Origin: Auricularia sp. M13
Taxonomy: Eukaryota; Basidiomycota; Agaricomycetes; Auriculariales; Auriculariaceae
Assembly: GCA_037042915.1 (NCBI GenBank)
Contig: CM073200.1
Location: forward strand, 992,001-1,056,000
Direction of reading: 5' to 3'
Length of the DNA stretch: 64,000 bases
Positions 29,071 to 58,900 of the stretch are shown here, in pieces; the first letter of the stretch is position 1, and every line of letters starts with the position of its first letter. The notes beneath the pieces were generated by a model. That model made no database searches. It was given only the letters and a program-made list of their open reading frames with translations, and was not told where the DNA came from. The position numbers and the translations under genes are program-made.

Positions 29071-30758
29071 AGAAAAACGTGCGCACGTGCGCAAGGTGCG
29101 TGCGTAACTTTAATTCAACCATAGAAGCCCATTTAGATAAGATATTGTCATCGTTGAAGGTGATTGTGGTAGCTATGATACCATTGCATGTGATTATCCA
29201 ACAACGGTCATCAAACCTTAAATATCCACAGAGATATTGTTGATATACACATTTCAACTTGCGTGCGCACGTGCGCACGTGCGCAAAACTAACGTGTGCC
29301 TGCGCACGCACTGCGCACGCATGTGGCAAGTATGCGCACGCAAGTTTGCAAGATGCGCACGCTATTGAAATGCGTGCGCAAAGATGCTCACGCTCTGCGC
29401 ACGCAAGTTGGAACCTTGCGCACGCACTCTTGGAACATGCGCACGCAGTCGTAATTGTTGCGCACGCTCACTTGGACTTTGCGCACGCTGTTGAAGAAAT
29501 GTACACAAGCACTTCTTAAGCCTACATGCACCCCTCATAAATGAGTGTTCAATTACTGGACAAGGATCACATGTTCTGAGTTCACATCTTGTTCGTTATC
29601 AAGAACATTACATTCTGACAGACAGGTCTGGTTTACCAAAGTTATAGTTGGTTGACCAGCCCTTAAGTACTAATCTCCAATGAAGCAAAGCCCATGTAGT
29701 TATTACATTAGTGCATCTCAACATGAATCTACATCAGACCTAGTACAGACTTTCCCAAAGGCTGTAGGCTGCCTCAAATACGCATTAACACTTGAGTGTA
29801 ATGCAGTTTGTAATGCATTACACTTTCGACTTCTAATGTGTATTAAACTCAGATGTAATGCACTCACCAATCCTTCACTACAATGTCTTAGAAGGTATCT
29901 TACACTTTACTCCGGTGCTGTCAAAAGTGCATTGCCTTTGGATGAAAGTTACGTAATTGGCAATCGAATACATTTGCAACTTCAAGTGTGCATTAACCTT
30001 CCAGTGTAACACAACTTCTAATTCATTACACTTGTGATATCTAGTGTGCATTAATCTTTGGGCCTAATGTAATCTCCAACTGATCACTTTAACATGCATT
30101 GCAAGCTCTGTAATCCACACTGCTGATGACTTCCTCGACAGTAACGTGGTTTCTAGTTCATTACGCTTGCGGCTTCTAATGTGTATGCTAAATATATAAT
30201 AAGCTTTAGTATACCGCTGACTTTGAATGCGTGTTATCCTGTTACGGCTCATTCGCTTTTCGCTCCTATCGCCGCTGGGCTTATCGGACCTTACTCGCGC
30301 CGACGTCATACGGACCGAGTCATCAGACCGAGACCCGCTGGCGCATGCGTGGCCCCGGCCTGCGGTCAGCGGTCCGGCCGGATCCGGACCCCCTTTATAT
30401 ACCGTGTGCTGTCCGCTCTCTGTACACTAGATTCGAGCTGGTTTGCCCACCGCCGATACATCTCGTCCTTTTTCCCCCCACCCGCAGAGCGTCCGTTCGG
30501 CGAGTATCCTTGGTCACCATAACATATCCATCAAGAATAATACAATACACTAGCAACCTCAGACTTGCACACGCATACTTGTGACTTGTGCACGCATACT
30601 TCTGACCTGCGCACGCATGAGGAAAAGCGTGCGTTCAGAGTTTTGGACCCTGCGCACGCAAGTGAAAACCATGCGCACGTATTTTGAAAACTGCGCACGC
30701 AAGTTGTGCGCACGCAAAATTCTGCGCACGTGTGCACGCACCCTGCGCACGTTTTTCT
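29071..30758. mobile_element. DNA element (about 1.7 kb) with 15-bp inverted ends and GCGCACGC subterminal arrays
   Basis: AGAAAAACGTGCGCA at 29071 is mirrored at 30744-30758. Dense arrays of the octamer-like motif TGCGCACGC, spaced roughly 20-27 bp, occupy 29260-29500 and 30560-30750. The centre (29700-30200) repeats a second motif around GTGTAATGCA/TGTATTAA. Arrays of this kind near both ends are typical transposase-binding regions. No transposase is encoded and no exact target duplication was seen. It is interrupted by the solo LTR at 30240. Confidence 0.6.
30240..30524 (+). mobile_element. Solo LTR, family C (285 bp)
   Basis: It starts TGTTACGGCTC and ends ACCATAACA, with a TATC C-type duplication TATCC on both sides (30235-30239, 30525-30529). 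A TTTATATACC promoter-like box lies inside. Orientation inferred from the TATA position. Confidence 0.85.
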
Positions 30759-31432: not shown

Positions 31433-33672
31433 TTAGAAGTAGGCACAGCTAGGGAGGACGTCCTCGGAGACGGTGTGGTGCAGCATCGGGGTGAGGATGC
31501 GGTCGCCCTCGGCAAACGCATACTGAGGAAGCTCGGGGAGCATGCGGATCTGCTCGCGGCTCAGAGTGCGCACCAAGTTCTCCCAGAACTCGTAGACGAG
31601 ACGTTGCGCCGCGGGGGTCGAGGCGCAGGTTGATGTTGCGGTGCCATGAGATGCGACCATCCTCCGTGACGCACTCGAAGTCGAATCTGTAGCCGTGAAT
31701 AGCGCAGCGGCAGATGCGTACAATGCGCTTGCGCTCTGGTGCACCTGGAACTTCACGGCAGAGCAGCTGTGTGATCTTGAAGATCTCCAGCTTCGCAGCG
31801 TCGTCAAGACCTGAGAGCGTGTTGGTGAGCTCGAGAGGTGACATCGCGAGGGCAAGGCAGTTGTCCGCGATGTGCTCTGTCGTTGAGTGAGTGATCGAGC
31901 AATGTCACAGTATGGTAGAATGATGCGTACCCGCCATAAACTCAGCGGTTCGTCTGTCCGTGTTACGGTGCGCGGCGATCTTGCCCATACTCCGCTTCCG
32001 TTGGATCTCTTTCGCCGCTTCACCCACTCCGTCGGACCGATATACCCGTTCCGCATGCCTCTCCGGACCACTGGCACATCGGCTACCTTTGCTCGGCGCC
32101 ACCGGACCCTTGTCAACCTCAGTCTTTGGATGCGATGCGCCATTGCCATTGTCGTCGACCACCGCTGCGCTGGTTTCCACCCGGGGTGTATCCGTTCGTC
32201 GGTCCGTCTCCTCGGTGTCACATTATGGCCTACACCTTCGGAGATGCAGCACACTACACCTCGGGTATTACCCTGCATGGCCGGTGCGCGCTGGGAGTAC
32301 AGGTGAAGCTGCAACGATCTTGCCGATGTACATCCTTCACCCTCGGTCCCATGGACGCTCGACCGCACCGATACCTCGGACCTCGGCCACCACACTCTCC
32401 TTGGTCCGCGCGCGGCATGGTCCATGGTCCGGAGGCTGTCCGGATGGAGTGGGAGTGTTGATTGTTGGGTGGTGCGCTCGTACCTTGCTCGCCGACGCGT
32501 TGCACTTGCCATTGCGTCGGCGCCTTTTGCCCCAGGTGTCGGTGCGTGCATACATGCAAGGACACCTCGGTCTGTCTCGGATACCCGCCCGATACCCTCC
32601 ATAGGCACGGACATCCTTTATCCCCTTCGTCCGGAGTCGTTCTGCGCCTTCGGTGCGACGCTTCACTCTTTCTTGACCCTCCCTTGACTCCCTTTACCCC
32701 CTATTGCTTCCACTGGCTCCCGATTACCCTCGGTGACTTCCCCAAGGCCTTTCCCATTGCTTCCGGACCTCTCTTTGGTGTTGGTTGGCTTCCTTTGTTG
32801 TCCGGAGCGTTCGGATCCGGTTTGCATCGGACTATATGTACCGGCAATTGCCCTCGGATTTACCCTAGGTTGGATCTGGTCTATTATGTGTTCGACCTTC
32901 CCCTCCTGAGTACCCTTCCTGGTCGGCTACGCCTCCTGGTCGGTGGTGTATGCAGCACACCGTGACAGTCCAATGGCGCTTCGGTGTCGAACACTCCCAG
33001 GATCAGAGTCGCATAGAGCGTGCGAGGAGCCTGCGCTTGGCAACGAGCTGGAGGTATATAGGGAATGACGGTGCGGTCGTTGCCAGTCGAATCTGACGTC
33101 GGTGTCGCCAGACGTGGCATCGAGTCGTGCGAGCTGGCGTCGATGGGGGAGCGATCCGTAGGAGTGTCGTGCGCATAAGAAGAAGAGGGAGAGGGCAGAC
33201 GTGTTGGCGGGTATGGCGGGTCGTATGCGTGTTCGTCGACCTCGGAGATCGGAGGGAGGCGCGGCAGGATTCCTAGGCGCTCCAACCTCTCAAACTCTGC
33301 CATACCGGCAATGTCGTTCAGTCCTGATAGGGAGTCAGCACTGATCAGGAGCCATCGTGTACGAATCGTACCGTAGAGTATGTCGTCGATGTTGACTCCC
33401 GGAGGGAATTCATACGGTCCAGTCATTCCCGCGGCCCACGCGGCTTCAAGAGCTTCAATACGTGCGCCTGCAGTGCAGTGAGACCCGGCTCGCATAGGAT
33501 AGCGCTGAGACTCACGGTCGGTATCGCGCCACATCTCCAAGTAGCGTAGGTTCTCGGCGACGGCGAGCGGCATTGGCATCGGCTCAATCGGTTCATCTTG
33601 CTGGCCAGGGAAGCCGCTGAGAGACTCGGGGATGGACACAATATCGTAGTCGCAGGAGTCGAGGGACGACAT
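31433..33672 (-). pseudogene. Extra ORF between pol and 3' LTR, disrupted by a solo LTR
   Basis: The upstream half starts MSSLDSCDYDIVSIPESLSG at 33672 and runs through acidic, Pro/Ser-rich sequence to LGVFDTEAPLD, where a 1007-bp solo LTR (31961-32967) cuts in. On the other side the frame resumes RRTAEFMA, a GTACGC..CAG intron follows, then EHIADNCLALAMSPLELTNT and CRCAIHGYRFDFECVTEDGR. A run of five C near 31612 where four would keep frame shifts the last part (LVYEFWENLVRTLSREQIRM..), which ends at 31433. No membrane segment, so not env-like; no family recognised. Its position inside the LTR-bounded unit on the same strand implies it travels with the retroelement. Confidence 0.65.
31961..32967 (+). 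mobile_element. Solo LTR, family A copy 1 (1007 bp)
   Basis: It starts TGTTACGGTGCGCGGC and ends CAGCACACCGTGACA. Flanks GTCCG (left) and GTCCA (right) agree at four of five bases, a slightly decayed target duplication. It is homologous over its length to 55885-57631 (outer copy), and its end matches 38490-38601. It splits the extra ORF of the Ty3/gypsy element. Confidence 0.85.
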
Positions 33673-34039: not shown

Positions 34040-34418
34040 CTGTACTGGCATGACCGGGAGTTCAGTCACGCGTCACGGAGACTTTTGAACTGAACTGAAA
34101 TTGCGTGACGTCACGGCCGTTGAGCAGCAGTGAACTCGCCTCCGGACCATTGTATGTTGATACCAGAAGCATATCAGCTCCCAGAAGCATTCTCTGCAGC
34201 CCGAAACAGCAGCCACAAGTGAGATGGGTTCAATATGAGCTTCCAAATGTCTGAAACTGAGCAATAAGGCATTCTGATACACAGAATCCGGAGTAAATCA
34301 TTGCTGATGAGTTGGTCGTTGAGTTCAGTCACGCCCAAACCTTGCTTTTGAACTGGTGAACTGGCGGCCGAAAGGTGTCACGCTCAAAGACAATGAACTC
34401 CCGGTCATGCCAGTACAG
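34040..34418. mobile_element. MITE (379 bp) with 25-bp perfect inverted ends and TA duplication, inserted in pol
   Basis: CTGTACTGGCATGACCGGGA starts at 34040 and the exact reverse complement ends at 34418 (25 bp each). TA flanks both ends (34038-34039, 34419-34420). It separates the integrase C-terminus (..GRGIQY) from the chromodomain. Its first bases (CTGTA) resemble those of the MITE at 3731, suggesting related mariner-type mobilisers. Confidence 0.85.
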
Positions 34419-37400
34419 TATTGTATTCCTCGTCCGCGCTTGCGCTCGTCGAGTATCTCTTCACCGTGGAAGAACTCGTTGCCCTCTTGAATGTACTCCG
34501 GCTCAGCGCGTTGCTCTGATTGTTTCGCAAATTCAGCAGGAGTGTCGTTATATGGTTTGAGGTACTCAGCATTTACTATGTCGTGAATATGCATATCGGC
34601 AGGGATCTTGAGCCTGTATGCATTGTCGTTGATGACTTCTAGCACTTCCCAGGGTCCTAGCCATTGGGCAAGTAGCTTCAGCGTTGGTCGTTCTCGTTCC
34701 CACGGCTGGGTCACGTGCTTCCGTGAGACCATGACTTTGTCGCCGACTTTGAAAAGGTGGTACTTACGGCCTTTGTTGTGGTACTTGGCCTGCACATCTT
34801 GGGCCTTTAGAAGAGTCTGCTGAGCCCTTTCAGCGTCAAGGCGCAGTTTCTCTAGGAAAGAGTCGACGCTCGACTCAGCCGAGGCGGAGGCTGCTAGGAT
34901 AAAGTCGTGCGATAGCCTGGGAAAGCGTCCACAGTCCAGTTCAAATGGACTGTAGCCTGTAGAAGGGTTAACGGAACTGTTGTAAGCAAATTCCAAAGCA
35001 GGGAGCAATTCTGACCAGTTATCCTGCGAATAATTGATGTACTAGTGGTCATGGATTTTACTGCGGATTCTGTCTGCCCGTCCGTTTGAGGATGATAGGC
35101 AGTACTGAAAGAGAGCTTGACGCCCAACTTTTCGAACAGCGTCCTCCAAAAATCGCTAGTGAACTTGGTATCGCGGTCAGAGATAATACGTTCTGGCAGA
35201 CCGTAAAGACATACTACTTCCCTGAAGAATCGGTTTGCCGTATCGGCCGCGGAGTCCTTCGAACGCGCTGGAATGTAGTGCACCTGTTTCGATAGCTTGT
35301 CTACCACGAGCAGAACCATGTCGTGACCGTCGTGCAACGTTGCGAACGGTCCTGCGAAGTCTACCGTTACCGTATGCCATCTTGCTTCAGGGACTGCGTT
35401 CGGCATAAGCGTACCAATTGGCGGCTGGTTGCTAGCCTTGTTCCGTTGGCATGAGTCGCAAGAGGAAACGTACGACTTGACGTCACGCGAGATTCGCGGC
35501 CAAAAGTAGAGGCGAGTTATCGCCAAGTACGTCTTGTCTATACCCAAATGACCCGATCCGACAGCATCGTGATGGTCGTGTAAGATGTTCAGGCGCAGAT
35601 CAGCGTGATTCGGAATGCAGAGCTTACGATGGGTCAAGTCCCCGGACGAGTGTTTCTTGAAGAGTAATCCGCTGACGAATTCATAGTCGCGAAACAACTG
35701 TCCCGCTGCGCCTGAAGCGAAAGCGTCGAGTATAGGCGCAAAGTGCATGTCTTGCGGGTAGCCCTCCTTGACCTTTTCGAGGAATAAGGGGTTGACTTGT
35801 GCTGCGGAGACATGCAGGGACTCACTTTCCATCACAGCGGCTATCTCCGTAACTGGCGCGCGAGACAGGGCGTTGACATTGGAATGCGACCGACCAGGAC
35901 GGTGTATGATTTTCAGGATACCGTCCCAGCCTTGCAGCTCCACCACCCACCGTTTAATACGAGCGTTAGTTCCTTTGTAATCCATAATCCACTGAAGCGC
36001 GGAGTGATCAGTGATCAGCTTCAGCGAAGGAACGCCTTCAATATACGGATGGAACTTACGCAGCGCCCAGACGATGTCTAGTAGCTCTAGTTCAGTCGCG
36101 GAATATCTTTGTTCTGCGCCGACAAGTGTGCGCGATGCCGTGCACACAATGTGCTCTTTACCATCGTCTCCCTGCTGAGCTAGAACAGCTCCAATGCCAA
36201 GATACGAGCCGTCCGTATAGATCGTGAACTCGCGATCGTAATTTGGATGTGCTAGGATCGGCTCTTCGCATAGCTTGTTTTTCAGGGAGTCGAAGGTGAG
36301 CTGGCATTCGTCTGACCAGACGAAATCGGCGTCTTTAGCCAGCAAACAAGTGAGAGGCCGCGCTATCATTGAGTAATCCTTGATAAAGCGTTGATAGTAA
36401 CCAGCCATACCTAAGAAGATTTGCACTTGTTTCACGTTCTTGGGAGCGGGGAAGTCCTTGATGGCTCTCACATTCTCCGACTTCATTCCAATACCAAGGC
36501 GGCTGACATTGTGACCCAAAGCCTGGACCTGAGAGTAGCATATGTGAGACTTCTTAAGAGACAGAGTGAATCCTGTGGGGATGAGACGCTCGAAGACTGA
36601 CCTAAGATGCGAGAGATGCGTCTCAAAGTCCGCGGAGTAGACTATAATGTCGTCAATATAGCCTACCGCATAGTCCCACTTCGCTTTTCCCAATGCCTTG
36701 TCCATACACCTTTGGAAAATCGAAGGTCCGTTCTTGATGCCGAACGGCATGCGTTTGTATTGGAACAGTCCGACCGGCGTGCGAAACGCCAGTTTCGGTC
36801 GGTCCTCCTCCTCAATCTCCACTTGATTGAATCCCGCGTTAGCGTCAAATGTGGAGAAGTACTTCTTACCTTGAAATTGATTCAGGTAATCATAGATTCG
36901 AGGTATTGGGTACTGGTCCGAGCGAGACACAGCGTTCAACTTTCGATAGTCAACACAAAAGCGAATTTTACCTCTCTGTTTGATGAGAACAACGTTGGCG
37001 GCCCAGGGAGAATCTGCGGGCTCAATCACATCGTTTGCCAGCAAGCGGGCGACTTCTTCTTCAATGAATCTCCATCCCTCGGGCGATACTCAAAACGGTG
37101 GTGTCGCAACTGGCGAAGCGTCACCTGTATCAATCTTGACCTTGGTCAAGTTAGTATGGCCAAGAGGACAGGATCCGTATGCGAAGACTCACCTATGAGA
37201 TCTCAGAACATCGAGCAATTTCTCCTTCTGCTCTTGAGATAGTTCCTGGTTGACATCGAGATCTTTGAGCGTGATCTCGAAGTCCTCCAGGTCTTGCTGT
37301 TCGTCGAGGTCGTCAGGCGCTACGTCTGCTGTATAGCTGTCACAGCTGGATGGCTTCGAATGATCCAAGAGCGGGAGAGCGCGTCCCAACACTTGTCCCT

Positions 37401-37766
37401 TTGAGATCCTCAAGGGAAACAGCTCGAGATTGTAAATCTCGACCCATTGCTCTGGACGAGCTGCGTCACCTATAGACCGAGCGGCAGCAGCGATTACATT
37501 CCCGTCCTGAAGTGGGACTGGATCGAGGTAATATTTACGCGTCTTCACGCGACCAGTCAACTCACCACGCACTCGCGCGGTGTGGAACGGTCTCACCGTG
37601 TAGCTCTCTGCGGCTCAAATAGCTCCTGGCGAGTCTCGCTTCACCCGAATATCGATTTGGACTTCGCCAGGTAAACGTCTCGTCAGGGTCATACGCTGCG
37701 AAGGAATGTCAATAATCCCTCCGTAGAACATAATGAAGTCGTTGCCCAGGATGATACGCGGCCTCG

Positions 37767-38601
37767 TGTTGCGGTTCTTGGCGATGTTCTTCGCCCACGC
37801 CACTCCCGCGTTGCTTTATCGACGCTCAGTCCTTGTTCGCCGTCCTCAATTCCCACCACCGCTACGCGCTCGGATCCTTGACCTTGGTCGACATGCTCCT
37901 GCAATGCCCTTTGGAGTCGCTCATCAGACGTCGCCCCTCTCTCGTCGCCGCGCCCGTGCACTCCAGCACCGTCGGCGTGCTCCTGCCGCCGTTCGGGCCG
38001 TCGGCTGTGCATGTCCGCTATCGGCCTTCGGCACCGGCCTCGGTCTTGGTCCTGTGCACAGTGCCCGCTGCACTCCCGGTCGGTCGGACCCTTTGCTCGG
38101 AGCATCCCCATGGTGGATCTCGACCACTCGCTGTGCCGCGGCGCGCACTCCGTGGTCTTGGCCATTCGCCACGCAGCTGCTGCTGCACTCCTCCTTCTCG
38201 GCCCTTCTCAGATACCCGCCCGATACCCCCATAGGCATGGACTCTAGTTTAGTATGGTTTCCTTCACCTTCCTTTCGTCACCCCCTTTGGTGGTTCCACT
38301 TTCATTCACTTCGTCGTTGTCCCCCTCGCACTGCCGCAGCACCTCGGTGTCTGTTCTATTTGTGTCTTTCCCCTCGGTCATTGCCCCGATCTTCACCCCT
38401 TCTACTCCGCACCTCAGTCCGCTTTATAGTGTGTTGTGGCTGCGCTTCCATTGCTTCCGGACCCGCTATAGTTACCGGCTATCGCCGAGCTGTGTACCCT
38501 AGGTTGGATCTGGTCAGTTATGTGTACGACCTTCCCCTCCTGAGTACCCTTCCTGGTCGGCTATGCCTCCTGGTCGGTGGTGTATGCAGCACACCGTGAC
38601 A
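37767..38601 (+). mobile_element. Solo LTR, family A copy 2 (835 bp), inserted between protease and RT
   Basis: It starts TGTTGCGGTTCTTGGCG and ends CAGCACACCGTGACA, with exact 5-bp duplications CCTCG at 37762-37766 and 38602-38606. The last 110 bp are nearly identical to the ends of the copies at 32967 and 57631. It lies opposite in orientation to the host retroelement. Confidence 0.88.
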
Positions 38602-41600
38602 CCTCGTTGACATAGAGTTTGGATGGGATCCGTACTTGTTTTCCCCATCTGTCTTCGAACACCAAGGTGAGAATAATGTAATGGGTTATGGTAGCATAGC
38701 CCGATACACCCTTGACATTGATCAGCGGACAGGGTCTCAGGATCTCACTCTTGAAGTGCCTCGCTCTCAATTTCGAGTCAATCAATGATATTGACGATCT
38801 GGTATCTATGCAAGCACGAAAAGAAGTACCCGCGGCCTGGCCATCGAATGAGACCGGTGTATAAGCAGGACTCTTGTCGGCGTACCGCATTTCGCCCAGA
38901 TCGTTGACTCGCGACGTGACAGACGAGTCAGGATTCAGCTCCTGCTCGTGCTTCGAAGCGTTTTTCGTGCCCACCAAAATCTTCGGATTCGGTAAGTGTT
39001 CTGGGTTCTTGTCTATGCACGGGGAAATTTTTTGATGCTTCTTACCTTCAATAGCGGGCGATTCTTTCGGAGAAGACATGGTCTTCGAGGCAGACCTAGT
39101 CGTAACTGCGTACGACTCTGCGAAGTTCGCCCCGTCTTTGCTGTCGTAGGCGTCCGAGGAGTGCTCTGAATCCGAGTCCTCCTCGTCCTCGTCCACATCT
39201 TCGCCTGCTTCCTGATCATCTGCAGGATCGGCGAGATAAGTCTTCGCGGGACGTGGAGCGGATTGCGACTGACCTGCAGCCTTCTGAGCGGGCGCCGACC
39301 CTGACGCAAATCGACGCTGCGTTGATTGCGACGTGAAGGTTGTTTGGCCACGCGGCTTCGAGTCAGGTGCACTAGGCCGTGGTACAGTAGCGGACAAGGT
39401 CGTTGTTGTTTCGCGTTGCGTAAAAGTCTTGTACCGCGGCTGTACGGCCTTCTTCTGATCGAAGCGATCTCTCACTGCGGGCGGCGGCTTGCGGACCAAG
39501 CTCGGTTCGAGGTCAATAAGTACACGACGGAAAGTCGTTAGTGATCGCGCACCTTGTGCTACCATCCCCGACTTTATGTGAGGGTGAAACTCGGCTGGAA
39601 GGCCCGAAAGTAAATCTTGAATACAGTCCTCCTGAGACACGCTAGGCATGACGATACGTCGTAAGCGAGTGCGTGTATTGAAGTAATTGGAGAACGTATC
39701 TCCGTGACGCCATATGCACTGACGAAGTTCCTGGCCTTTCTTGGAGAGGTAGTTGGCCTCTCGGAACTCCATCCTCATGGCGTTAGACCAGTCGTCCCAA
39801 GTCGTATAGCTTTGGCAAGTTTCCGGCGCGAGAGTCGTGATCCATTCCCTTGCCTTGCCGGCAAGGAGCATCAGGAGATTGGCCAATAGATGATCGAAGG
39901 GGACTTTCATCCAAGGGGTATCCTGGATCAAAATCAACGGCACCGGGTCGGTAACCGCTGCAATGCCAGCGACCAGCAGACATATATACTATATCCGCGG
40001 ATATACCTCCGAATCCGCGGATTTGCCTCCGCTTTGTTCCGCTTCCCAGGTACATCATCACCGAGATCATCTTACCGGTGAAGTCAACCAGTGTTGCAAC
40101 ACACCTGGCACTGCATATATCTGCATAGCTACATGAGAATACTCAAGTATCATGTCAGAAAAGTCTCGTCTGCAACTCTGAAGAGATAAATCCGCCTCAG
40201 AGCTTCCATATGCACCTGGCTGGCCTCCGGCTCCGCCCGAGCCTGAGGTCGGCAACCTCTCTAGCGCAAGCTCGGAGGAGACATACATACTAACGTGATG
40301 TACCGGATTTTGCCGATGACCACCCCTTGCTTTCATCTGGTCGTAGATTGCGGTCAGCTTGGCAATCCAGATGTCAACGTCCTTGCCTACTCTGGCAGAG
40401 AACTTGGGCAAGTCACGCACTTTTGGGATCACTTGTCCCAAAGATCCTTGACTGCCCGTCGACCATCCTAGGCCCTGCGACGCACGCTGTTGATCGTTAT
40501 CAGGGGCAGTAATGCCTGGACCTTGGGGCGGCGGTGGCGGTGGCGGCGGCGCCCCAAACATGTTGCCTTCGAGAGGCGGTACAGCGACACCATTCGCGGG
40601 CGGCAGCGCTGCGTCACCTCCTAACGGACTGTTTTGTGACGCATATGGGGGAGCCGGTGTGGCGCGTGTGCCTGCAGCAGGCACGCGATGCGGATCGACC
40701 GATGGATCCGGATAGGGTGCCGATGCAAGAGGAACAGAGAGCAGCCTATCTTCCGAGTGAACGGCGCTGGCATCTGCGTATGCCGTATAAGGAGCACCTC
40801 TGAAGAACGGAACTCCAGTCGCAGGTTGTACTGGCGGCGACAGAAATCGTACTCGAGGCGGCATGGACGATGACAGTGGCAGCTGTGCGGCAGTCGGATG
40901 CGCAGCAAGTGGCGGCCAGGGCGGTGTGGTGGAGCCTCCACCGTCTAGAAAGAAGGAGTGAGGCTCTGGCTTCTCATGACTGATCGTCCGGTCTCGGCGT
41001 GCACAGAGGGGGGGGGGGGTTGCTCGTATTGAGCGTGATGATCGCAACCCGGAGATGGCCGGGACGGACTTGGCGCTCCGTACAGACACGGGCAATCTCT
41101 GCCATTTCTTTCAGAAATCGCTGTTTCCAGCCTCGCAAGTCGAGCGTCAAAGCGGTCCCAATCAACCGATCTGCACTGGCATGAGCACGACGTCGCTTGA
41201 GGAATGCGTGCCGCATGAAAAGTCCTGGATATAGCATCGAGCAGCTCTTGAGAGCGCGCGTTTGCCGACGCATCTAGCGAGCCGGTCAGTGAAGTAAATT
41301 GCTCACCAAGCGAGCTCTCAATATGGTCAAAGGTTTCATCCATCTTCTTCTCGAGAGCAGAGTGGATGTCGTCGAGTCTCTTAAGGATAAGGTCCCATAA
41401 CCTGTCGAATAGTTTAGGGACGTTCCTCTTGAGTTTTCCTTGCTCGTCCGAGATCCTCTTCTCAAACTGGGTGAGGTGCTCAAGCAGGGCCTTCTGGTTG
41501 TCAGGCATCAGTTCCAGCAGCTTCTGGATCCTGTCTAGACGAGACAAGAATCCAGTATCTCCGTCAGTCAAGAGAGATAAGATCGTTGTGACTTGATCGA

Positions 41601-43785: not shown

Positions 43786-44518
43786 ACCCTCGCATCGCGT
43801 AACACACTGTGTCCGCGGCGACGCACCGAGGTTCTTCGGGCGGCCATGCGGCAGTGCGCGAGCGCTAACTGACGTTGCTCTTTGCCGTCATTTCCCGTTT
43901 GGTGAGGCTGCGATGAACCCGTCAGCAGCAGATACAGGAAGCTATAGAGAATGTCTGACATTCGCCATGGCTCGTGAAGTTTGAGAGAAGTGTCGAGGTC
44001 AGTGGGGGTATCGACTGAGTTTGATTGATTGGCAGCGCACTGACGGTATAAATATTAGTGGGTGAGGGGGTGTTAAATTGGCAGAATTGACCCAGAGGCC
44101 GCTTGACGGCGCCAAGAGACGGCGGCGTCAAGAAACAAGCCGGTGCCAAGGAGCCGCCTGCGTTGATGAACCGGACGGCGGTCGTTGCCTTTACCGGCAG
44201 GTTCTCGACGGCTTTTTGGATATGCGCGGCGCCGCGATACCATACGTGTTGTCCGCTAATGGACTGTGTGACCCATCACACCATTCCGATGCTTTTTCAA
44301 GCACGTGAAGCGATCAGTTAGAAGATAATGCGGTGAGATGACTGATAATGCGGTGAGATAACCGTTATTCGAGCAGTTTGAGATGAGCTATAGTTTACAT
44401 ATGGCGGAAAGATAATGATGACCGATGAAGATAGAGCTGTAACATGATATGGATAGGCCACGCTCCCATGTAATCCCTTAGAGACTGGTCCCTGTCACAG
44501 GCCTATCCAACAATGCGC
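43786..44518. other. Intergenic
   Basis: No gene seen. Near 44100-44125 the sequence GACGGCGCCAAGAGACGG is the reverse complement of the CTCTTGGCGCCGTC motif found in the clusters at 20620 and 52120. AT-rich beyond 44330. Confidence 0.4.
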
Positions 44519-45792
44519 TTAACGAAAACAAATATCACACGGCGTTGCACTCACCAGGTTGCAGACGAGCAGTATATTTGTTTCGTCCTGCTTACTGTAA
44601 CATTTAGAGACGTCGAGATGCTGCTCGGCCAGACTGCCGATGAGTTTCTACCAGAAGGTCACGTCGCATTCCATACAGTGCCTGGTGAATGAGAGAGACC
44701 TTACCTTCACGTCCTTGTATCGCTCATCAGGCCAGTTCAAGGCCTGCTGTAGATTATATCCACCACTATTCGGCCGGGAATGCCGACCCCGAGGTCTAGG
44801 AATGGTGCGGCGCTCGGCGGGAGAAGGGCCACGAAACGGGGAAGACGGGGGTAAATGTACGGGCTGCGAGCTCACGTCGACATCCTGCAAAGATCCTTCC
44901 TGCAAATACTCGATTAGGAGCGTTCTAAACCGAAACAACCAGCTCACAGACGCTGCGAGCCCCATAGCCGCCGCCGTAGATGGCTCGCCGTCGTGCCTGT
45001 CGCACAGCGCGTCCAGCTTGACCAGGACTTGGACGTATACGCAGGAGAACATAGGACTCTGCTAAACGCGGATTAAATCAAGGAATCAGAGGGGAAACCA
45101 GACTAACAGTGCTCGTAGATTGTGCAGTGTTTCGACCTGAAGGATCTCCCTTTCACGAGCAGTCAGTCGCGATGCACGCGGTCGAAGGCAAAATGGGTAC
45201 TTACGGCATCGCTTGTCAGCTTGAATGGATTGAGGAGCGACGGCGCCGAGACCTTGATTTCGACGATGGCGAAGAGGTTCATCTTGCGACGCCTCATTTT
45301 CTATAAGCGATCAATAAACGCAAACCCGACATGACCATTCACGAACGCTGACGATAAAATTAAGCAGAGCGCGAGGGTCCCAAGCCTTGCCGAGTAGGAC
45401 AGAGCATGGCGTGATGCACTATGAAGGCCTTGTAGCCGCGTGCTTAATAAAATGATGAAAACTCACCTCAACGAGTCGGTTCATTAGCGCGAGCTCTTCA
45501 GCTATGGCGCGCTCGTCGAAAGTAGGAAGCTTCGGAACGTTCGCATCGCCATATTCCTGTACGCACGTGGTTTAGAGACTGACAGAGATGCATGAGTAGA
45601 AACGTACGGGTACGTCAGGGACACGACGGCGGAGGTTTCCGGGCTGTGCGTGGCTATGAGTAAGGCGAGGAGAAGCAGATCCTGAGGACTTACGTGCAAG
45701 TCATCCTGCAGGTCCTCCGAGACGGTGAACGGCGACGGCGACGATGGATACTGTGCGGTCGGATCGAGTGAGGGAGGGGATTTCTGATGCAT
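44519..45792 (-). CDS. Hypothetical multi-exon protein
   Basis: Starts MHQKSPPSLDPTAQYPSSPS at 45792. Successive in-frame exons follow: FTVSEDLQDDLH (ending at GTAAGT, about 45693), PGNLRRRVPDVP, EYGDANVPKLPTFDERAIAE..NRLVE (about 45560-45470), KMRRRKMNLFAIVEIKV..LTSDA (about 45305-45210), then MFSCVYVQVLVKLDALCDRH and a Pro/Arg-rich tail, with a final exon KLIGSLAEQHLDVSKCY and stop at 44519. Introns have GTAAGT/GTGAGT/GTACGT donors and CAG or TAG acceptors; some are unusually long for this window (about 100-160 nt). I do not recognise the family. The extent of the 3' exons is uncertain. Confidence 0.5.
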
Positions 45793-47326
45793 TTATCAAG
45801 TTTCGATCGGCGCAAAGAGTTGAGACGTACGGGCGGGATAAGAAGAGTAGGAAAAAAGAATCCTCCGGGCGAGACATGGCGATCGGAAGAGAGGAAGCGT
45901 GGAGCGTCAGCAGCACTGCAATGGGCAAGCTGATCCAGACGCGGGGTGAGCCGTTCGTATCGCGCGGTGGTGGTCTCGCGGGAAGACGTCTTGGCAGATG
46001 TGTACTGTGGCGGGTGTGAGAACGTGCTGACGCGGGGGAAAGGAGAGGAGAGCTGGCCTTTGGCATTGATTACGAGGGCCGGCAGTGAAGACGAACGGAC
46101 GCGGGGGAGATACGAGGTATGCGATCCAAGGACTCAGGCGTCCGGATGTTTATATCGCACGACTGGTGCATTGAGCGATGTCGCGTCCGTGCAGATGCAT
46201 TGGAGGACAATGGATATCGAGGACGTAAAGAGCAGGAGCAAGGTTCTGGCAACGTTGCCCGCGGAATGGGTTTGACGAGCACCGTCCTCGTCCCTGGAGA
46301 GCTCGCGTTGTGGAATCGAGCTTGCTTGACGCTCCCAGAGGACGATGTACGCATGGGCCCGGGCAGAAGAGGCGTCGGGGAGTGGGACGGAGCGATGAAG
46401 CGGATGTGGGCGCAGCACTGCGTCGGGACCTGAAGGCGGCATTGTGCTCATGAGGGAGCACACGTGTATGGATAAAGCCAGATCTCGAGTAAATGAGCAA
46501 GAGATTAGAGTGCCGCCGTGAGATCGCCTTGGTAGGAGACGCATGGCACGAGGCCCAGAGCGCCAGTAGGTGGGATCAACAGACACACGTACGTACGGTC
46601 AGGGCAGCGACGACGCGCTCCAACAAAGCCGCAAGAAGCAGGCAGGTCATATCAAGACCAGGGCATGGAACAAAGGCAAGATTATCGGGATAAGAGCACG
46701 AACCAAGGCGCTCTGACAGACACAGTCGCCAGCGATGCAACAATTTTGCTGGGTTGTCGACAGCCCATGCTACGCAGACGGATGGACCGACGGACCAGCT
46801 GCAATCCATACCAGGATGCCCTGAGTGACCAACGGGTCGACTAAGGGCACGAATGAGCCCGTCTGCAACTCAGAAAACAGATTCGGACTGGGCTGGAATC
46901 GGAGTCGAAACAATCTCATAACACGAGATCTGGCAGATGACGTTGAACGCGCGCTACACGTGTGGGTCGAGCGCTTGAGCCTAGTGAAAGCGAACGCCCG
47001 GTATAATCACAATCAGCTGCACACGCGGCAGCTGCGTTCGCAGCTCAGAGTCAGGGGCCAGCAACTGGTGCCTCGCACGGTGGGCGGCGTTTTGCTCGTG
47101 TTTCCTGGTTGTCTGCTCACTGATGAGTTCAGCATTTCCTCAGAGCTCGAGGACAAGTAGCGCCGCCGGAGACTTGTGCTCAAGCGCCAACCGCCTTTGC
47201 CCTGGCAGGCACGCAAACTGCCAACATCAGGTTCGCGGCAGCTAAACGGAAGACGGGACGGATCGGCCGAATCCAGTGGACCCTTGGCGAGTAAGTACCA
47301 TGCGTCGCGGCCCAGTGCGAACGATC
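45793..47326. other. Non-coding or unrecognised region
   Basis: Open frames of 90-150 codons on both strands overlap each other and lack convincing splice signals or motifs. Nothing I can support as a gene. Confidence 0.4.
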
Positions 47327-47418
47327 TCGCCGTCGCCGTCCCTCGCCGTCGCCCTTCGCCGCCGCCATCCCCCCCGTCGCCGTTGCCGTCGCCGGCGCCG
47401 TTGCCGTTGCCGTCGATC
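47327..47418. repeat. CGCCGTC/GTTGCC simple-sequence tract upstream of the exon-cassette gene
   Basis: Irregular short units CGCCGTCGC, CCGTCGCCG and TTGCCGTTGCCG run for about 90 bp. The composition recalls the GCCGTC motifs of the two larger clusters in this window. It lies about 180 bp before the start codon at 47595. Confidence 0.6.
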
Positions 47419-47594
47419 TATCAGGAACGACGATGGCATAATCCAGATTTCCTTGGCGTGCATTGGTCCGGACGGCGTGCATTGATCAAGACGACATGCA
47501 TTGGGCAAGGCGTGCACGCACAACCTCGCGCAACGGCAAGCATGGGTCGCGTACTTAATGGCGGGTCGGCGCGGCCATTCAGTCCACGTCCCCA

Positions 47595-49607
47595 ATGTCG
47601 CTTCAGAACAACAACGAGATCGAGTCCAACCGTTGCACCGGCACCTGCCCTGGCAGGTCAGTGGCAAGCACCGCGGTGAGCGTTGTTCAGTTTCAACATC
47701 ATAGTGTTGCCAGCGCTGACACCTTTCCAGCCCGCCGCGTTCGGTCCTGGTTCGGCTATGCAGAGCCCATGGACCGTAGATGAGGTTTGTAGTCCCATAT
47801 CCGTTCTGCTGCAATCTTGATAACATTGGTCACAGCTGCTCGGTTTCTATCGCTCGTACGGCTACCTTCCCAACTTTGGATTCGTAAGTCCTCGCGCGCC
47901 CCAGCTCAAGGTCGAGAAATGCTAACTTCTTCGTAGCCAACAAATCCTGCCATGCCCGTTCAAGGTGCAAGTGTGCTCGAGTCGCAGGATGTCACAAACA
48001 ACGTCGACGTCGTATGTCCTTTTCCCGTGCCGGCCGCGCTTCTGCTGACCGTGCTTGCAGCCCCGGATGACGTTCAACGGCTCGATGTCGCACCAGGACG
48101 GCCGCGCTGCCGCTCAACAGCAGGTATGGCAGCGTACAATGCAGGTACCGGCCTAGTGATTTATGCTGCTCTTAGCCGCAGGCCACGACGCTTCATCACG
48201 GTGTGACCCCGCACGCGAGCGCCGATGTCGCCCCCGTGAGTCTACCGGCCGTCTCAAGCTTTCTTGTCCCTTCCTGACCGGCTTTGCAGCCCCAGATGAC
48301 GTCCAACGGGGCGATGTCCCGCCAGGACGGCCGCGCTGTCGCTCCATCGCAGGTATGTCAGTGTACAGTGCAGGTACCGGCCTACTCACCTATGCCGCAG
48401 ACCAAGACGCTTCATCATGGCGTTCCCCCACACGCGAGCGCCGATGTCGCCCTGGTGAGGACTTCACCGCCCTCCGTCTTTCTTGTCCCTTCCTGACCGG
48501 CTTTGCAGCCCCAGATGACGTCCAACGGGGCGATGTCCCGCCAGGACGGCCGCGCTGTCGCTCCATCGCAGGTATGTCAGTGTACAGTGCAGGTACCGGC
48601 CTACTCACCTATGCCGCAGACCAAGACGCTTCATCATGGCGTTCCCCACACGCGAGCGCCGATGTCGCCCTGGTGAGGACTTCACCGCCCTCCGTCTTTC
48701 TCGTCCCTTCCTGACCGGCTTTGCAGCCCCACATGGCGTCCAACGGGGCGATGTCCCGCCAGGACGGCCGCGCTGCCGCTCAACAGCAGGTATGGCAGCG
48801 TACAATGCAGGTACCGGCCTGCTGGCTTATGTTGCGCTCAGCCCCAGACGACGACGCTTCAGCACGGTGTGCCCGCACACGCGAGCGCCGATGTCGCCCT
48901 CGTGAGGTTTTCAGCTATATTTCTCATCTCCATCTGACCGTCTCTGCAGTCCCAGAGGTCCAACGGGGCTATGTCCAACGCGTACGGCCGCGCTCCTGCG
49001 CCCTCGCAGGTACAGTAGTTTACGATGCTGGTAGTGGTCTGCTCGCTCATGCTACTTTAAGCCCCAGACTACCATGCTTCATCACGGCGTACAGGGACAC
49101 GCCAACACCGACGGCCGCCTCGTGAGTTTTCCGACGCTGCTCTCGCCCTCGCCTGATCCTGTTCGCAGCTCCAAACGGCAATGGACTGCTCACCGTCCTG
49201 CGCGGAAGGTCGTACCGCCACTCCCTCCCAGGTACCTGTCCCATGCGACTGAATTGCAGCGCATGCCGCTCACTGGCCCATGTATAGCTGGGACTTAGTA
49301 TGCAACGCGACGATGTCCCTCCCCAGGTAGCTAGCGGAGATTGCACCGTGCAATCGTCTCAGGTATGCCCGTCTACTTCGCTGACCGCCTCGGCTTTCCT
49401 CACATGTGCTTGCTGTGACTTCAAGACCCCTACGCCTCATCCTATGGTATGCACCTTTTCCGTCAGTCTCGTTCTCTTATCAAGTATCTAATTATCACAT
49501 AGCCCCATGCTATTGCACCCCCCACCGACTATCCCAACCCCTTGTGTGACCCCGTGAGCCAGACTGTCTTCGAGACCGATGTTCGAATCGAGTTTGTTTA
49601 CGTTTGA
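47595..49607 (+). CDS. Orphan protein from an 18-exon gene containing tandemly duplicated exon-intron cassettes
   Basis: Predicted exons: 47595-47675, 47731-47784, 47836-47883, 47937-48011, then alternating A exons (48061-48123, 48290-48352, 48509-48571, 48727-48789, 48951-49010, about 49169-49231) and B exons (48182-48235, 48401-48454, 48620-48672, 48848-48901, 49068-49121, about 49288-49362), two short exons and a stop at 49607. All introns are phase 0 with strong signals (GTGAG, GTATG, GTAAG; TGCAG, CGCAG). N-terminus MSLQNNNEIESNRCTGTCPG; exon 2-3 give MQSPWTVDELLGFYRSYGYL. A exons (20-21 residues) share SNGAMSRQDGRA; B exons (18 residues) share TLHHGV..HASADVA. About 365 residues, low complexity, no known domain. 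B exon 3 (48620-48672) has lost one C and is out of frame. No signal peptide or membrane segment. Confidence 0.65.
48061..49370 (+). repeat. Six tandem copies of a 218-229 bp A-exon/intron/B-exon/intron cassette
   Basis: A-exon starts at 48061, 48290, 48509, 48727, 48951 and 49169 give periods 229, 219, 218, 224 and 218. Cassettes 2 and 3 are almost identical including both introns. Cassettes 5 and 6 are progressively diverged, so duplication seems most recent in the middle. Confidence 0.85.
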
Positions 49608-52119
49608 AGTTTCCCCCATCGATGATGTGTAGTACTGTTGGATGCCGTTTGTCGCGGGCATCTTTGTATCCTGTCTATTCCAATGCTCGTTTCCTTACGT
49701 CAATGATTCACCATCCTTGTGCCGTAACATCGCCCTGCTTATAATTATGCATATGACACTCATGCGGTCCATTAACGCGAAGATCAGCATTCCAGCACGA
49801 CGTCCAAAGGTCACAGAGTCGCTTGCGGGACCCACATATGCTCTCCTGTACATCCTTCACATCGGATCCAGACGCCTAGAGTCCTTTCTAGTCCTCGCTC
49901 AAAGGGCGTGCAAATACAAGTTTCTCATACCGGCTTCCTTTTTCACACGGACCATCTCCACTGGGTACTACCGTACTGATTTTCGACAGCGTTATTTCGA
50001 ATTCGATGTGGATGAAGGGGAAACTTCCCTCCTGGAGTGGCGGGACAGTTGTTGTTCAGCTGTCAGGCTGTTAACGACAATCCAGAGTGGCCAATGAGTT
50101 GGTGAATGGCAATGGCCCCAACATGCTTCTTGGACTTGGGTTCCTTGAAAAAGAAATAGGGCACAAGATTGAACGTGCACCTTTGAGTGCCTGGTCCGTG
50201 GGGGGGCTCAACGGCGCTCTGGGTGGAGACCGCGTACTCAGGCTTGCACTGCGGCCGGACTGCGGCAACACATGTAATAACGTGCCAGCAGGTAGTAAAG
50301 CGTCCACGTCGCTGATATACAGCATCGAGAACAGTGCTGTCGCCATGCTCTCCTCGAATTAGCGGAGCACCTCAGACTCTGAGGAAACGGTCAATTACTC
50401 ATATCATCCACCGGAGCAGAGCGAGGGAATACGCACGTAGCCGGGGGCGAGAATCTGGTTCTGCGAGAATAGCTGGCCCTTGACGCCGAGCTGGTGGTCG
50501 TGATGACGGGCGAATCGCGTGCGTTCTACAAACATTGACCATGCTCAAGCTCTTGCCTTCGTCCGCTGGAGCGCGGGGGTGGGGGTTATTTTAACATCCA
50601 GCGCTGGTGCTGGTGGGCGCCACGTTCGGGCCCTGGCTGTTGTCAGTTGAGAACATCAGTTCCATATGCTTGACCCTGCAATCGAGTGGCGGTCCACCTC
50701 CTCGATGATAAAGAATCTGCAGACAACGATGATAGTATTGAGCAAGTCGCAGAGTGAAGCGCAGTACTGAGCGTGCGAGGTTAATGCTTGAGGGCAAGAG
50801 CAATATTAATTGTCGTCGGAGGTGGGTATTAGGTTACAAGGTCGGGATTCGTGTCGGCCGTATGTAAAGTGTTCTTCGCCCTTGCTTTGGTCAACTGCAT
50901 GGGGATTATAAACAGTCAATGCGCATTCGGGGACGGCGTGGACGCAGATGGCCCATCCGGCATCATTCTGTGGGTCATCGTCTGTGCAAACGCGCTCAGA
51001 TGGGCCGGAATGACCAATATTTCCATGTCCACCAGTTGTCGGAAACCGCCCGAAGGGGCTGCAGCGCTCATTTGCCGCAGATGATGCGTGGCCCCGCACG
51101 GGTCTGGGTCCGCAGAGAGAGCCCGCACGTCGAGTCCGCAAATGCGCCAGATACTTGACGATGGACTGCTGATCCCATGTAGTGCGGCGACAGTCGCTGG
51201 CCGTAGATGCTCAGCAAGCGCAGTACACGGTGTGGCGGCGCCGGACGGAGAGCGGGAATGCGAAAATCCATGTTCGTGCCCCAGATTGCGAGCACGCGCA
51301 CCAACTCAGCGCTGTCAGAGAGCTGTGGCATGCAAGCCAAGACTGCGTGGAACGGAGCGTCGGGGCCGCCTGCGTCTGCGTGATGTCGCGCGGCAGGGCA
51401 TCAGCGCCAGTTCAAATGGCGAAAATGGGTTTGTGGCGACTCCGAACAATCCGAACTTGCTGACTATCCACGAATGCAAAGTTGGCGTCATGGATAGTTT
51501 TAGCAGAGATGTGACATAGAGAATGGGCGTCAATTCGGGCCTGAGACGAGGGTAGGCCAAACGATGGGACGCGCGTGGCATTTAAAACCTTGTCTCCAAG
51601 CGCATGTGGCAGTTTGAGCAGTTTGGAGCAGTTTGGATGGTGCGGAAAGACACGGACAAGGTGGTCAAAGCGGCTGAAAAGTCGTTTTCTCGAGCTGAGG
51701 CAACAAGCAGCCTGCGTTGATTTGATTCGGCGTGCGCGCGCGACACGGAGCTGCAGAATTGCAGCTAGTACTGGATTATTGCAGTCGGAGAGCATGCCAG
51801 CCCTGAGCGGGAACCTGAACATCATGGATGTGACCCAGAAGGTGCAGACGCCTGCATGGGCGCCATGCGCCCAAGAGTGCCGTCCGGCGTCCGTATGGAC
51901 GGTTGGCGGATTAGAAAAAGTGCGTTTGCCACAGTTTGGCACCAGGTAACTGAATGTCCCATATTGCCAGAACTCGATACAAGGAACTAGGTCGTTCTGG
52001 TGGATGGCGAGGAACCCGGAGCCAAAAGAGCCGGAAGCAGATTTCCAAAGACAGATTAGGCAAATCCCGGGGATTTTGGTCGGAGATAAAGGACGGCACT
52101 GCGTGACCGTAAACTTGAA
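49608..52119. other. Region without a recognised gene
   Basis: A plus ORF at 49642-50097 (151 codons) and a minus ORF at 51412-52134 (240 codons) have no family features. A short minus stretch at about 50510-50400 (HHDHQLGVKGQLFSQNQILA) looks protein-like and could be a decayed exon. Confidence 0.35.
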
Positions 52120-52640
52120 CGTGTCAACGGTCAACTGTGAACGTTGAACCTTCGACTGCCGCTGGCTACTAGCCAGTGCGACAGTTCTTGCGCAGCGCCG
52201 TCTCTCGTTAATCCGATAGTCTCCCGGGCTCGGACGACAGCCACACCGCCTTCGTTGCTTGCCCCGCGCCGTCTCTTGGCGCCGTCAGCACCCACGCCGT
52301 TCTCTTGGCGCTGTCAGTTCAATTCGGCAGACTCGCTGACGGCGGCGACGCGCGGACTCGACGGCGGCGGCCGCCTCGCCGCCGTCAGTATTAGTCTTGA
52401 TCTTGTCGCCGACAGTCGTCACTCACCTCTTGCAATCACCGCCTAGTTGCACTGTCACTGGAGTTCTCAAATCCACTTATTCTTTCTGACGGCGGCCGCC
52501 TCGCCGTCGTCGTGTTTTGCCGTCACTTGGCGCCGTCAGTCCAATCTGTTTGACCGTCATCATTTTGATAGTACCGTCAACGCCAGCTGCCGCCGGTCCC
52601 GATATTCCATCATCGTGGTGTCACCGCCCAGCCGCCCTGT
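52120..52640. repeat. GC-rich cluster of GACGGC..GCCGTC inverted repeats (copy 2)
   Basis: It begins with TTGAAC-like units (about 52127-52150), then CTCTTGGCGCCGTCAG (52271), GGCAGACTCGCTGACGGC (52325), GCGGCCGCCTCGCCGCCGTC (52367), CTGACGGCGGCCGCCTCGCC (52486) and CTTGGCGCCGTCAGTCC (52528). Same motif order as 20620-21480, including the shared string TCGGCAGACTCGCTGACGGC. Confidence 0.7.
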
Positions 52641-55900: not shown

Positions 55901-58900
55901 AATTGCGCCCATACACCGCTTCTGTTGGATCTCTTTTGCCACTTCGCCTGCTCCGTCTGACCGATATACCCGTCCTGCAAGCCTCTCCAGATTGCTGGCA
56001 CCTTGGATACCTTCTCTCGGCATCACCGGATTGTCAACCTTGGTCCTTGGATGTGACGCACCATTGCCATTGTCGTTGACCACCGCTGCGTTGGTTTTCA
56101 ACCAGCATGTAGCTGCTTGTCGGTCCGTCTCCTTGGTGTCACATTACGGCCTACACCTTCAGATATGCAGCACATCACACCTCGGGCATTGCCCTGCATT
56201 GCCGGTGCACGCGGGGAGTACAGGCAAAGCTGCAACGATCATGCCAACGTCCATCCTTCACCCTCTGTCCCTGTTACGCCCGTGCCCCGGTCCGCGGACC
56301 CCACGTGCTCTCGGCATCACTCGGCGTCATTCTACGTCACTCGGCCAACTCGGTCAACTCGGTCAAGCTCCCGAATACCCGGTTTATCTCCCCTCGTGTT
56401 CATATGCTCGGGATATGTTCTCCTCATCGTCCTCTACCTCTAGACCTCTCCCTCTCATCTCTAGCTTCTCTCCTTACTCGCATACATCCACCTAACTCGC
56501 CTTGTCCCTATTGTATCCATAGTGTTCATATCCGGTTTGCTCCACTCGTCTTAATCATTCGCCTCTCGTCATTCGTCCGATCCCCCGATACCTTACCCAC
56601 TCGCTCTTACTCATCCTATCGGCCGATGACGAAGATCTCTATTGATCTGAGGCCCCTCTCCTTCGTCTCTAGGATACACTCCGATTACATCGGATCACCT
56701 CCCCAGGTATAAAAGACCCTCGACTTTGTATCTAGCTCCCCAGTTACGAAATCGACATAGTCGTGCCCCTCGCACACTCTATCCCTCTCTCTCGACTTCG
56801 CCTCTGGGTTCTTCCCTCGCCCGACTTACTCGTCTGAGTCCTCTGTTGCTCGTGGTCCCTTCGGTCGTGCTACTCGACGTAGCCGGTGTGCTCAATAAAA
56901 CACCAAAGGCTCTAGTTGTTCGTTCGAGTGTTCTCTGCGCCCGGACGTTCGACTATCCTTGCAACCAAACCCCCAAGGCACAGCAGGCTTAACAGTCCCA
57001 TGGATGCTTGACTGCTCCGGTACCTCGGACCTCAGCTGCCACACTCTCCTCAATCCGCGCTCGGCACTGTCCATGGTCCAGAGGACGTCTGGACACATTG
57101 GGAGTCTAGATTGTTGGGTGGTGCACTTGTACTGCGCTTGCTGACGCGTTGTGCTCACTGCTGCGCTCGCCATTGCGTCGGCCCCCTTTCTCCCCCGGTG
57201 TCGGTGTGTGCATACATGCAAAGACACCTCGGTCTATCTCAGATACCCACCCGATACCCTCCATAGGCACGGACATCCTTTATCACCTTTGTCCGGAGTC
57301 GTTCTGCTTTTGGTGCAATGCTTGTGCTCTTTCTTGACCCTCCCTTGACCCCCTTTACCCCCCATTGCTTTCACTGGCTCCCGATTACCCTCGGTGACTT
57401 CCCCGATGTCTTTCCCCATTGCTTCCGGACCTCCCTTTGGTGTTGGTTGGCTCCTCTGTCATCCGGAGCGCTCAGATCCAGTCGGCCTCTGACCGGACTA
57501 TATATACCGGCGATTGCCCTTGGATGTACCCTAGGTTGGATCTGGTCTATTATGTGTTTGACCTTCCCCTCCGGAGTACCCTTCCTGGTCGACTATGCCT
57601 CCTGGTCAGTCCTGTATGCAGCACATTGACAAATGGCCTGAGGCATGCAACCCTGGCCAAGTCTCAGTCCAAGGGGAAACAGTGCACCAAACTCCTCTCT
57701 TGGGTGTCAGTCTTGGTGAGTGACGAGCACTCTGCCATGACAAGAAGAAGCATTCAGAGTGGCAAAACAGATCCAGTGGGAGCATATGGGCATGATCGCC
57801 ATGTACTGTGACATGTATCTGCTTGGAATTGTATTCAGTGTACCCTAATTTGATATAATCAGTTGTTCTGCTCATATTTTCCTTCCAGAATCCTCCTGAA
57901 CCTGTCTGAGCACGAGTGAAGTGCTTTGCTGTGACAGTTGCATACCAAATCATGTTTGGACATCCATTCTTCCTCTCTGGCTTAGATATATTATCTCCAC
58001 TAAGACATAATATTATAGAGCCCATTGAGAGCTACAATAATCATATATACTTTATAATTTTTGGCCTCTTGGTTTCAATGTTATTTGCATTCTTCTGAAC
58101 AGAGGTGCTTGAGTCTTACCATATATTGCCAGCAATGGAGCTCACCATCATCTCCTCCCTGGTCTAGTGGTTAAAGCATGGACGGGTTTGGCACTGGCGA
58201 CTGGTTGAGGGTTCAAATCTCCTGCAGGTCAGAAGTCATTTTGACTTGCGCATTGAGATGAATCCACTCCTAAGTCGCATGTGAGCCCCCTGAAAGTTGG
58301 GACTACTGAATCTGGGACTCTGGAACTTGGGACCTCCAGAGGTTGGGACCTCCAGTAGAAGTTGGGACCTATGTCCCAATGAAAGCTGGGATTTGGGTCC
58401 CAACTCTCAGTACTGGAGGATTTGGGACCAGTATACCAGAGGAAGGGAGGCTTACATATGTGAGGCATCGGCAAGACATCGCTCTCCGAAGGTACGCGCA
58501 AGACAGGGTTCGCCCTCTCCTACAGGATCGCTGGGCAGCTTTCCCCGCAAGGAGCTCTCGCTACGCGTGCAGAACCCCGGCCGTGCGGTAACACTGCGTG
58601 AGAAAGGGCTCGCTGCAAGTCCGTTATCGCCACATCGTGATCGCAAGACTGCGCGATGCTCGTTATCGAGAGACTGGTCCAGCTGCATCACGGAACAGTC
58701 TGACATCACTACCACTTCGCGCTCGAGTCGTGATCGCCCACAGGCGAGCGAGCACGGCGTCGGTCACCGTAGCTCGTGGTCGACGACGGAACTGGACGAT
58801 GTTGTTCGGTGCGACGAGAGCTCGACGACACGCAGCATCCGGGATGTGCTCTCACGCTCGTCGAACTCGATGAGGAGCAACAACGATAACCAACCTGGGA

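Follow-up and report, generated by a model that had tools for sequence, protein, structure and literature searches.

Repeat proteins of fungi usually grow inside one exon. A locus on contig CM073200.1 (C8 below) of Auricularia sp. M13 raises the question of whether a fungal gene could also grow by duplicating whole exon-intron units, and how the composition of such a gene might change without loss of the reading frame. Here, the unit of growth appears to be an alternating two-exon cassette with its own introns. The locus lies within a stretch of 64,000 nucleotides, hereafter the window (C8:992001–1056000), of a genome of 52.1 Mb in 14 contigs. The tandem cassettes are real, and they are very probably part of a spliced, protein-coding gene. 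Our best explanation, which we consider probable as a whole, is that the window gene belongs to a protein-coding family with at least three members on C8, laid out as a short unique 5′ part (exons 1–4), an array of A and B exons, and a locus-specific 3′ end. The symmetric exons of the array would be exchanged in frame, and the product would act together with a neighbouring gene, N.

The units of the array follow one another head to tail, starting at 48061, 48290, 48509, 48727, 48950, and 49169. The resulting spacings of 229, 219, 218, 223, and 219 bp confirm the unit length of 218–229 bp given in the preliminary description; TRF reports a period of 219 at 48045–48907 and at 48045–49090, and repeat finding also recovers the array. 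Two exon types alternate, A with about 21 codons and B with about 18. Six cassettes had been proposed, of which five A-B cassettes are complete and are followed by a sixth A exon to which no B exon can be clearly paired, giving six A exons and five B exons in total.

The gene model lies on the plus strand and begins with the ATG of exon 1 (47595..47675, 81 nt), which is three bases shorter than the 84-nt exon of both paralogues, with differences at two places. Exon 2 (47731..47784, 54 nt), for which our splice scan puts the donor a few bases further upstream, exon 3 (47836..47883, 48 nt), and exon 4 (47937..48011, 75 nt) complete the unique part, exon 4 being at most weakly A-like (permutation p 0.05–0.09 against A1, A2, and A4). 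The array consists of A1 (48061..48123), B1 (48182..48235), A2 (48290..48352), B2 (48401..48454), A3 (48509..48571, identical to A2), B3 (48620..48672), A4 (48727..48789), B4 (48848..48901), A5 (48950..49009), B5 (49068..49121), and A6 (49169..49231). The exon lengths of 63 and 54 nt proposed earlier hold for most of these exons, the exceptions being A5 with 60 nt and B3, which is assembled here with 53 nt but has 54 nt in each of the two paralogues. In place of the sixth B exon stands a 75-nt exon (49288..49362) of unclear type, composite or degenerate, which scores against both types (best permutation p 0.03 with A6 and 0.004 with B2, uncorrected). It is followed by a weakly supported 21-nt exon (49426..49446) and the last exon with a TGA stop (49503..49607). 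Introns measure 47–58 nt in the array and 47–63 nt over the whole gene model, and GT and AG are found at every internal exon border. As predicted from sequence, the repeat unit holds exons together with introns, and the exons are symmetric in the intact paralogue, as in genes grown by tandem exon duplication.

Chains of GT and AG could also arise by chance in a repeat. We therefore scored chains of 45–70-nt introns joining stop-free exons in a dynamic-programming scan, in which the weights for generic fungal donors, branch sites, and acceptors came from general knowledge and not from training on this genome. For the array, nulls were made by permuting alignment columns, which retains the repeat structure. 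None of 200 such nulls reached the observed score of the five-unit array in any of four settings, and none of 400 nulls reached that of the non-repeated exons 1–4 at either penalty. The proposal of conserved splice signals is borne out by this array chain far above chance, together with the intact borders. Against 150 simple shuffles, the whole gene stands out by 18–26 SD at penalties 10 and 12 and by 5.7–9.4 SD at penalty 14, values that the repeats inflate. The cassette region ranks first of 118 segments of the window, both strands included, and when 420 segments of 1.5 kb from the C8 sequence examined were scored, the three cassette loci supplied all of the top six. For the window model, the 3′ end is unsupported by the scan because nulls often reach the score from A6 to the stop: 62/400 (any phase) and 95/400 (phase 0) at the laxer penalty, and 39/400 and 400/400, respectively, at the stricter one.

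When any phase was allowed and no ATG was required, the scan preferred to read the array in a different frame while keeping the introns nearly unchanged; stops in this alternative frame speak against it. The scan is not biased to phase 0, because a WD40 gene of the window (an unverified model) comes out with mixed phases. A test based on the longest ORF chain, in which 0/200 shuffles reached the any-phase value and 1/200 the phase-0 value, was replaced by the signal-score test because it prefers few introns and scored other window segments higher. A tandem array of approximately 296-bp units close to an N-like gene (L057 5905–7382, C8:1,131,905–1,133,382) served as a minisatellite control for the scan. 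Over C8:1,131.9–1,133.4 kb it scored 5.5 at penalty 9 in phase 0 and 19.0 at penalty 8 in any phase, the laxest setting.

The coding reading is best examined in the paralogue L010 (C8:1,204,369–1,208,741, minus strand), which is 98.6% identical to window 45579..49947 and carries its gene at 1,204.6–1,207.3 kb. This gene scores 62.3 at penalty 9, far above the minisatellite control. Its 18 exons of 21–105 nt are all multiples of three, all introns are in phase 0, and an uninterrupted ORF of 368 codons runs between ATG and TGA. Of the alternative frames of the spliced sequence, the two forward ones contain 7 and 4 stops and the three reverse ones 1, 20, and 10, and none of 2000 base shuffles was open. 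Across units 1–5 of L010, the sole change in exon length is one codon, in A5, and introns vary by 6–10 nt. Some exon pairs differ mainly at third codon positions, with differences at positions 1, 2, and 3 of (1, 1, 7) for B2 and B4, (2, 5, 10) for B4 and B5, and (9, 6, 17) for A2 and exon A7 of the L009 locus described below; the A exons of units 1–5 have no third-position excess. A summed test gave 47 third-position differences out of 95 (p 0.0008), which is illustrative only, the five pairs having been picked post hoc.

A second paralogue, L009 (C8:1,251,090–1,254,130, plus strand), is 99.2% identical to window 46196..49235. The idea that this copy is truncated at A6 was rejected, as further cassettes follow downstream. 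Beyond A6, we find seven further exons and a terminal exon, forming strongly diverged cassettes: B6′ (60 nt), A7 (63), B7 (48), A8 (24), B8 (69), A9 (54), B9 (120), and the last exon (102, TAA), all multiples of three. Joined, they keep one open forward frame (4 stops each in frames 1 and 2), as did 3 of 2000 base shuffles. B6′, A7, B7, and A9 match their own type in the expected order (best p ≤0.0175, uncorrected) and do not match the opposite type (p 0.17 or more); the eight residues of A8 match A weakly, and B8 and B9 match neither type significantly. The DNA of the tail finds only itself in a search, with short dispersed matches past the gene end; the protein search adds nothing to the self-match but exon A6 in the two other loci. 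The two terminal exons, when compared, have no similarity (p 0.96). The significance of the tail in the splice scan is modest: at penalty 8, 9/200 nulls (any phase) and 1/200 (phase 0) reach the score of the tail, and at penalty 10, 9/200 and 8/200. The splice-chain case for this tail is weakened because the minisatellite control reaches 19.0 at the laxest setting, compared with 12.9 for the tail at penalty 8, although the minisatellite was scanned in a longer stretch.

That value is one of the observations that would suit a plain non-coding minisatellite whose GT-AG chains are there by chance. The GC-rich repeats of the array also read without stops for long distances in more than one frame, and intron 1 is conserved as strongly as the exons. 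We nevertheless hold such a minisatellite to be highly improbable, in view of the absence of any repeat-preserving null at the observed score in four settings, the significance of the non-repeated exons 1–4, and the alternation of types, which can still be seen in the protein sequence of cassettes whose DNA has no detected similarity. The first proposal, that entire exon-intron units were duplicated inside one gene, is well supported by these nulls, by the single open forward frame of L010, by the type alternation in the L009 tail, and by the third-position excess in some exon pairs. From these observations we infer that the cassette exons are spliced and translated.

The statement that all exons are in phase 0 applies to L010 (18/18) and has to be qualified for the window copy, where 17 of 18 exons are multiples of three. 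B3 is one base short of its twin B2, and the window frame is lost from there onward. As assembled, L009 has three frame-breaking exons (A1, A2, and A4). These breaks, together with partial copies of the segment and retroelement pieces nearby, could be taken as signs of a decaying family, once a spliced cassette gene, in which the window copy and L009 have become pseudogenes, leaving L010 as the one active copy or no active copy at all. The distribution of gaps points in another direction. In 11 near-identical pairs, which overlap and are not independent, we counted 105 mismatches and 60 gaps, 49 of them of one base, and 23 of these 49 sit in runs of at least three; in 7 of the 11 pairs, gaps are as numerous as mismatches or more so, one pair of 1,356 bp having 6 gaps and 3 mismatches. 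This indel excess fits long-read assembly error without proving it. Furthermore, the GT and AG of the splice sites are all kept in the part common to the three copies, and the tail exons of L009 are open. We thus regard a decaying family as unlikely, and the window copy itself may contain either assembly errors or traces of decay. The retroelement pieces lie at 34325–39988 on the minus strand and are Ty3/Gypsy-like, with a Tf2-1-like SH3 domain (34325–35041), reverse transcriptase, RNase H, and integrase (34894–37089), and gag (38561–39988).

How could such arrays have been reshaped? Because their exons are symmetric, cassettes could be gained, lost, or swapped in frame by unequal exchange within a locus and by gene conversion between loci. 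Unit 4 of the window is a mosaic: the 5′ part of A4 is nearest to A2 and A3, and its 3′ part, like the beginning of the intron behind it, corresponds to unit 1. All three loci have the same number of cassettes in the 5′ part that they share. Compared per 150 bases, the identity between L009 and the window is 0.31–0.64 left of 46.2 kb, 0.97–1.00 across 46.2–49.2 kb, and 0.36–0.56 beyond, where the low flank values would not by themselves show homology. At 46.2 kb the value jumps from 0.64 to 0.99, past 49.2 kb it is down to 0.56, and the 99% identity ends sharply at the donor of A6. The near-identical tract has diverged sequence on both sides, with a diverged N copy on the left (48% and 47% identity in the two best matches) and diverged cassettes on the right. 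The simplest reading is that L009 carries a conversion tract that begins in the intergenic region and ends at the A6 donor, which would have fused two arrays in frame. With units 1 to A6 of one type and a diverged tail, it looks like the product of such an exchange, and the contrast between L009 and L010 supports the view that an exchange of cassettes can leave the frame intact.

Segmental duplication or hitchhiking with a mobile element, and not gene conversion, might have made the three near-identical segments. They have differing ends and two orientations, and one piece, C8:1,164,318–1,167,189 (94.6% identical to window 44394–47287), contains N and intergenic DNA but no cassette gene. We consider such an origin rather unlikely, because the L009 segment is flanked by diverged N on the left and by A-B cassettes on the right, as expected of conversion within an existing locus, and ten ORFs in and around the region have no Pfam match. 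A general repeat search lists a single inverted pair flanking the cassette gene, and this pair is weak (32 nt, 72%). In our reading, the gene pairs form an old family, and their arrays were probably reshaped by gene conversion or unequal exchange.

Symmetric exons might also serve alternative splicing, with cassette skipping as their purpose and many length variants as the outcome, as in schistosome micro-exon genes. In A2 and A3 alike, two candidate acceptors lie in frame at a distance of 6 nt (48290–48298 and 48509–48517), a possible source of small isoforms. In-frame duplication also explains the symmetry of the exons, and we judge it distinctly improbable that skipping is what the cassettes are for.

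Gene N is divergent from the cassette gene and lies on the minus strand at 46133–44396, with approximately 11 exons and approximate start and end. Using the any-phase scan at penalty 10, 8 of its 11 introns are in phase 0; in any-phase scans, the proportions are 10/10 for the N copy at C8:1,164 kb and 9/9 for a relative at C8:1,127 kb. Each of the three cassette genes has an N match as its head-to-head neighbour; weaker matches occur on C8, C1, C4, C6, and C7. No convincing cassette partner was found in the sequence examined around other N-like matches at C8 ~1,091, 1,127, 1,164, 1,197.5, and 1,247 kb, which covered a few kb at 1,127 and 1,164 kb. Judged by its position, the intergenic region (46134..47594) may serve N and the cassette gene as a shared bidirectional promoter. 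No Pfam family matched the translations of two N copies.

A, P, S, and Q are abundant in the predicted L010 protein, which has 55% disorder-promoting residues and looks disordered. Its best Pfam match, LacZ_4, scores 20.8 bits against a curated cut-off of 27.3, no match above the cut-off was obtained, and no PDB match had an E value below 0.8. Two versions of the protein had no homologues in a large protein database. This negative result is uninformative because an F-box ORF from the window, the single control, was also unmatched, the database probably being poor in fungi. By hydropathy, the N-terminus is not strongly hydrophobic (best mean 0.99 over 11 residues and 0.55 over 19), which argues against a signal peptide. 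A KEX2-processed peptide was rejected from this lack of a signal-like N-terminus and from the absence of KR or RR sites in both the 368-aa L010 protein and the 200-aa L009 tail. A mating-type locus of the HD or receptor kind was also rejected, as the sole Homeobox_KN match lies on C3 and the five STE3 matches on C7. Together with short introns and many exons, these matches suit a basidiomycete. The product would be an intracellular, largely disordered, and fast-evolving repeat protein acting with N, its biochemical role being the weakest step of the proposal. A bolder version is possible, if doubtful: in a family of head-to-head pairs, one partner would be assembled from interchangeable two-exon cassettes, conversion would swap blocks at exon borders to give in-frame chimeras, splicing might choose among cassettes, and the pair would have a fast-evolving function in recognition or conflict.

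Other repeats and duplications occur in the region. A GC-rich repeat is present at window 20698–20892 and 52263–52317; all matches listed for the latter, as lower bounds, lie at 1.01–1.26 Mb of C8, the stretch with the gene pairs. Window 19963–21315 is approximately 99% identical over 1.05–1.35 kb to sequences at C8 ~1,063, 1,200, and 1,246 kb, and short tandem repeat clusters at 29301–30730 are built on TGCGCACGCA. Two segments, 32368–32971 and 57020–57625, are both 80–81% identical to one place at about C8:1,100.4 kb and form a local duplicated family.

In the sister locus L009, two arrays seem to have been joined in frame at a cassette border into a natural chimera, and by such a route a fungus might remodel a repeat protein. 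The family might be a compact system for testing whether intron-separated symmetric exons aid recombination without loss of the frame, a long-standing claim of exon shuffling. The rarity of this arrangement in fungi rests on literature searching and not on a genome survey: we found no equivalent among the best literature matches for tandem exon duplication, microexons, or repeat genes in fungi.

Several known systems resemble the cassette genes in part. Fibrillar collagens with their 54-bp exons, titin, and Dscam are animal proteins that grew by the duplication of symmetric exons together with their introns. They share this mode of growth with the present array but are animal genes of other families, and the likeness is one of description. 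Aphid bicycle genes have many small exons. They form a family recognised by its exon-intron structure, as mentioned in the available part of one source (PMC11333574). The parallel is again by description and, as far as that source goes, lies in a family defined by structure, those genes being insect effectors. Schistosome micro-exon genes have symmetric exons and evolve fast. The accessible part of one account gives them very short exons (3–81 bp), introns of up to 5 kbp, and secreted products (PMC10526429). The cassette genes likewise have many short symmetric exons, here of 21–105 nt and all multiples of three in L010. Compared with what that account covers, they differ in their introns, which are long in micro-exon genes and 47–63 nt here, in their two-type tandem array, and in an N-terminus that is not strongly hydrophobic, whereas micro-exon gene products are secreted. 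SP7-like effectors of arbuscular mycorrhizal fungi are described, in the portions available, as having a conserved intron ahead of the first repeat (PMC11333574) and KEX2 sites within the repeats (PMC5293756). On that partial basis, they too are repeat proteins of fungi in which the repeats are linked to the structure of the gene, but the cassette genes have two introns per repeat and no KR or RR site. KEX2-processed repeat proteins of Agaricomycetes, judged from the section at hand (PMC9769878), are alike in being fungal repeat proteins and unlike in that the cassette product has no KEX2 site and no evident signal peptide. Within the literature searched, and from the parts of those sources available, SP7-like effectors and schistosome micro-exon genes are the closest systems found.
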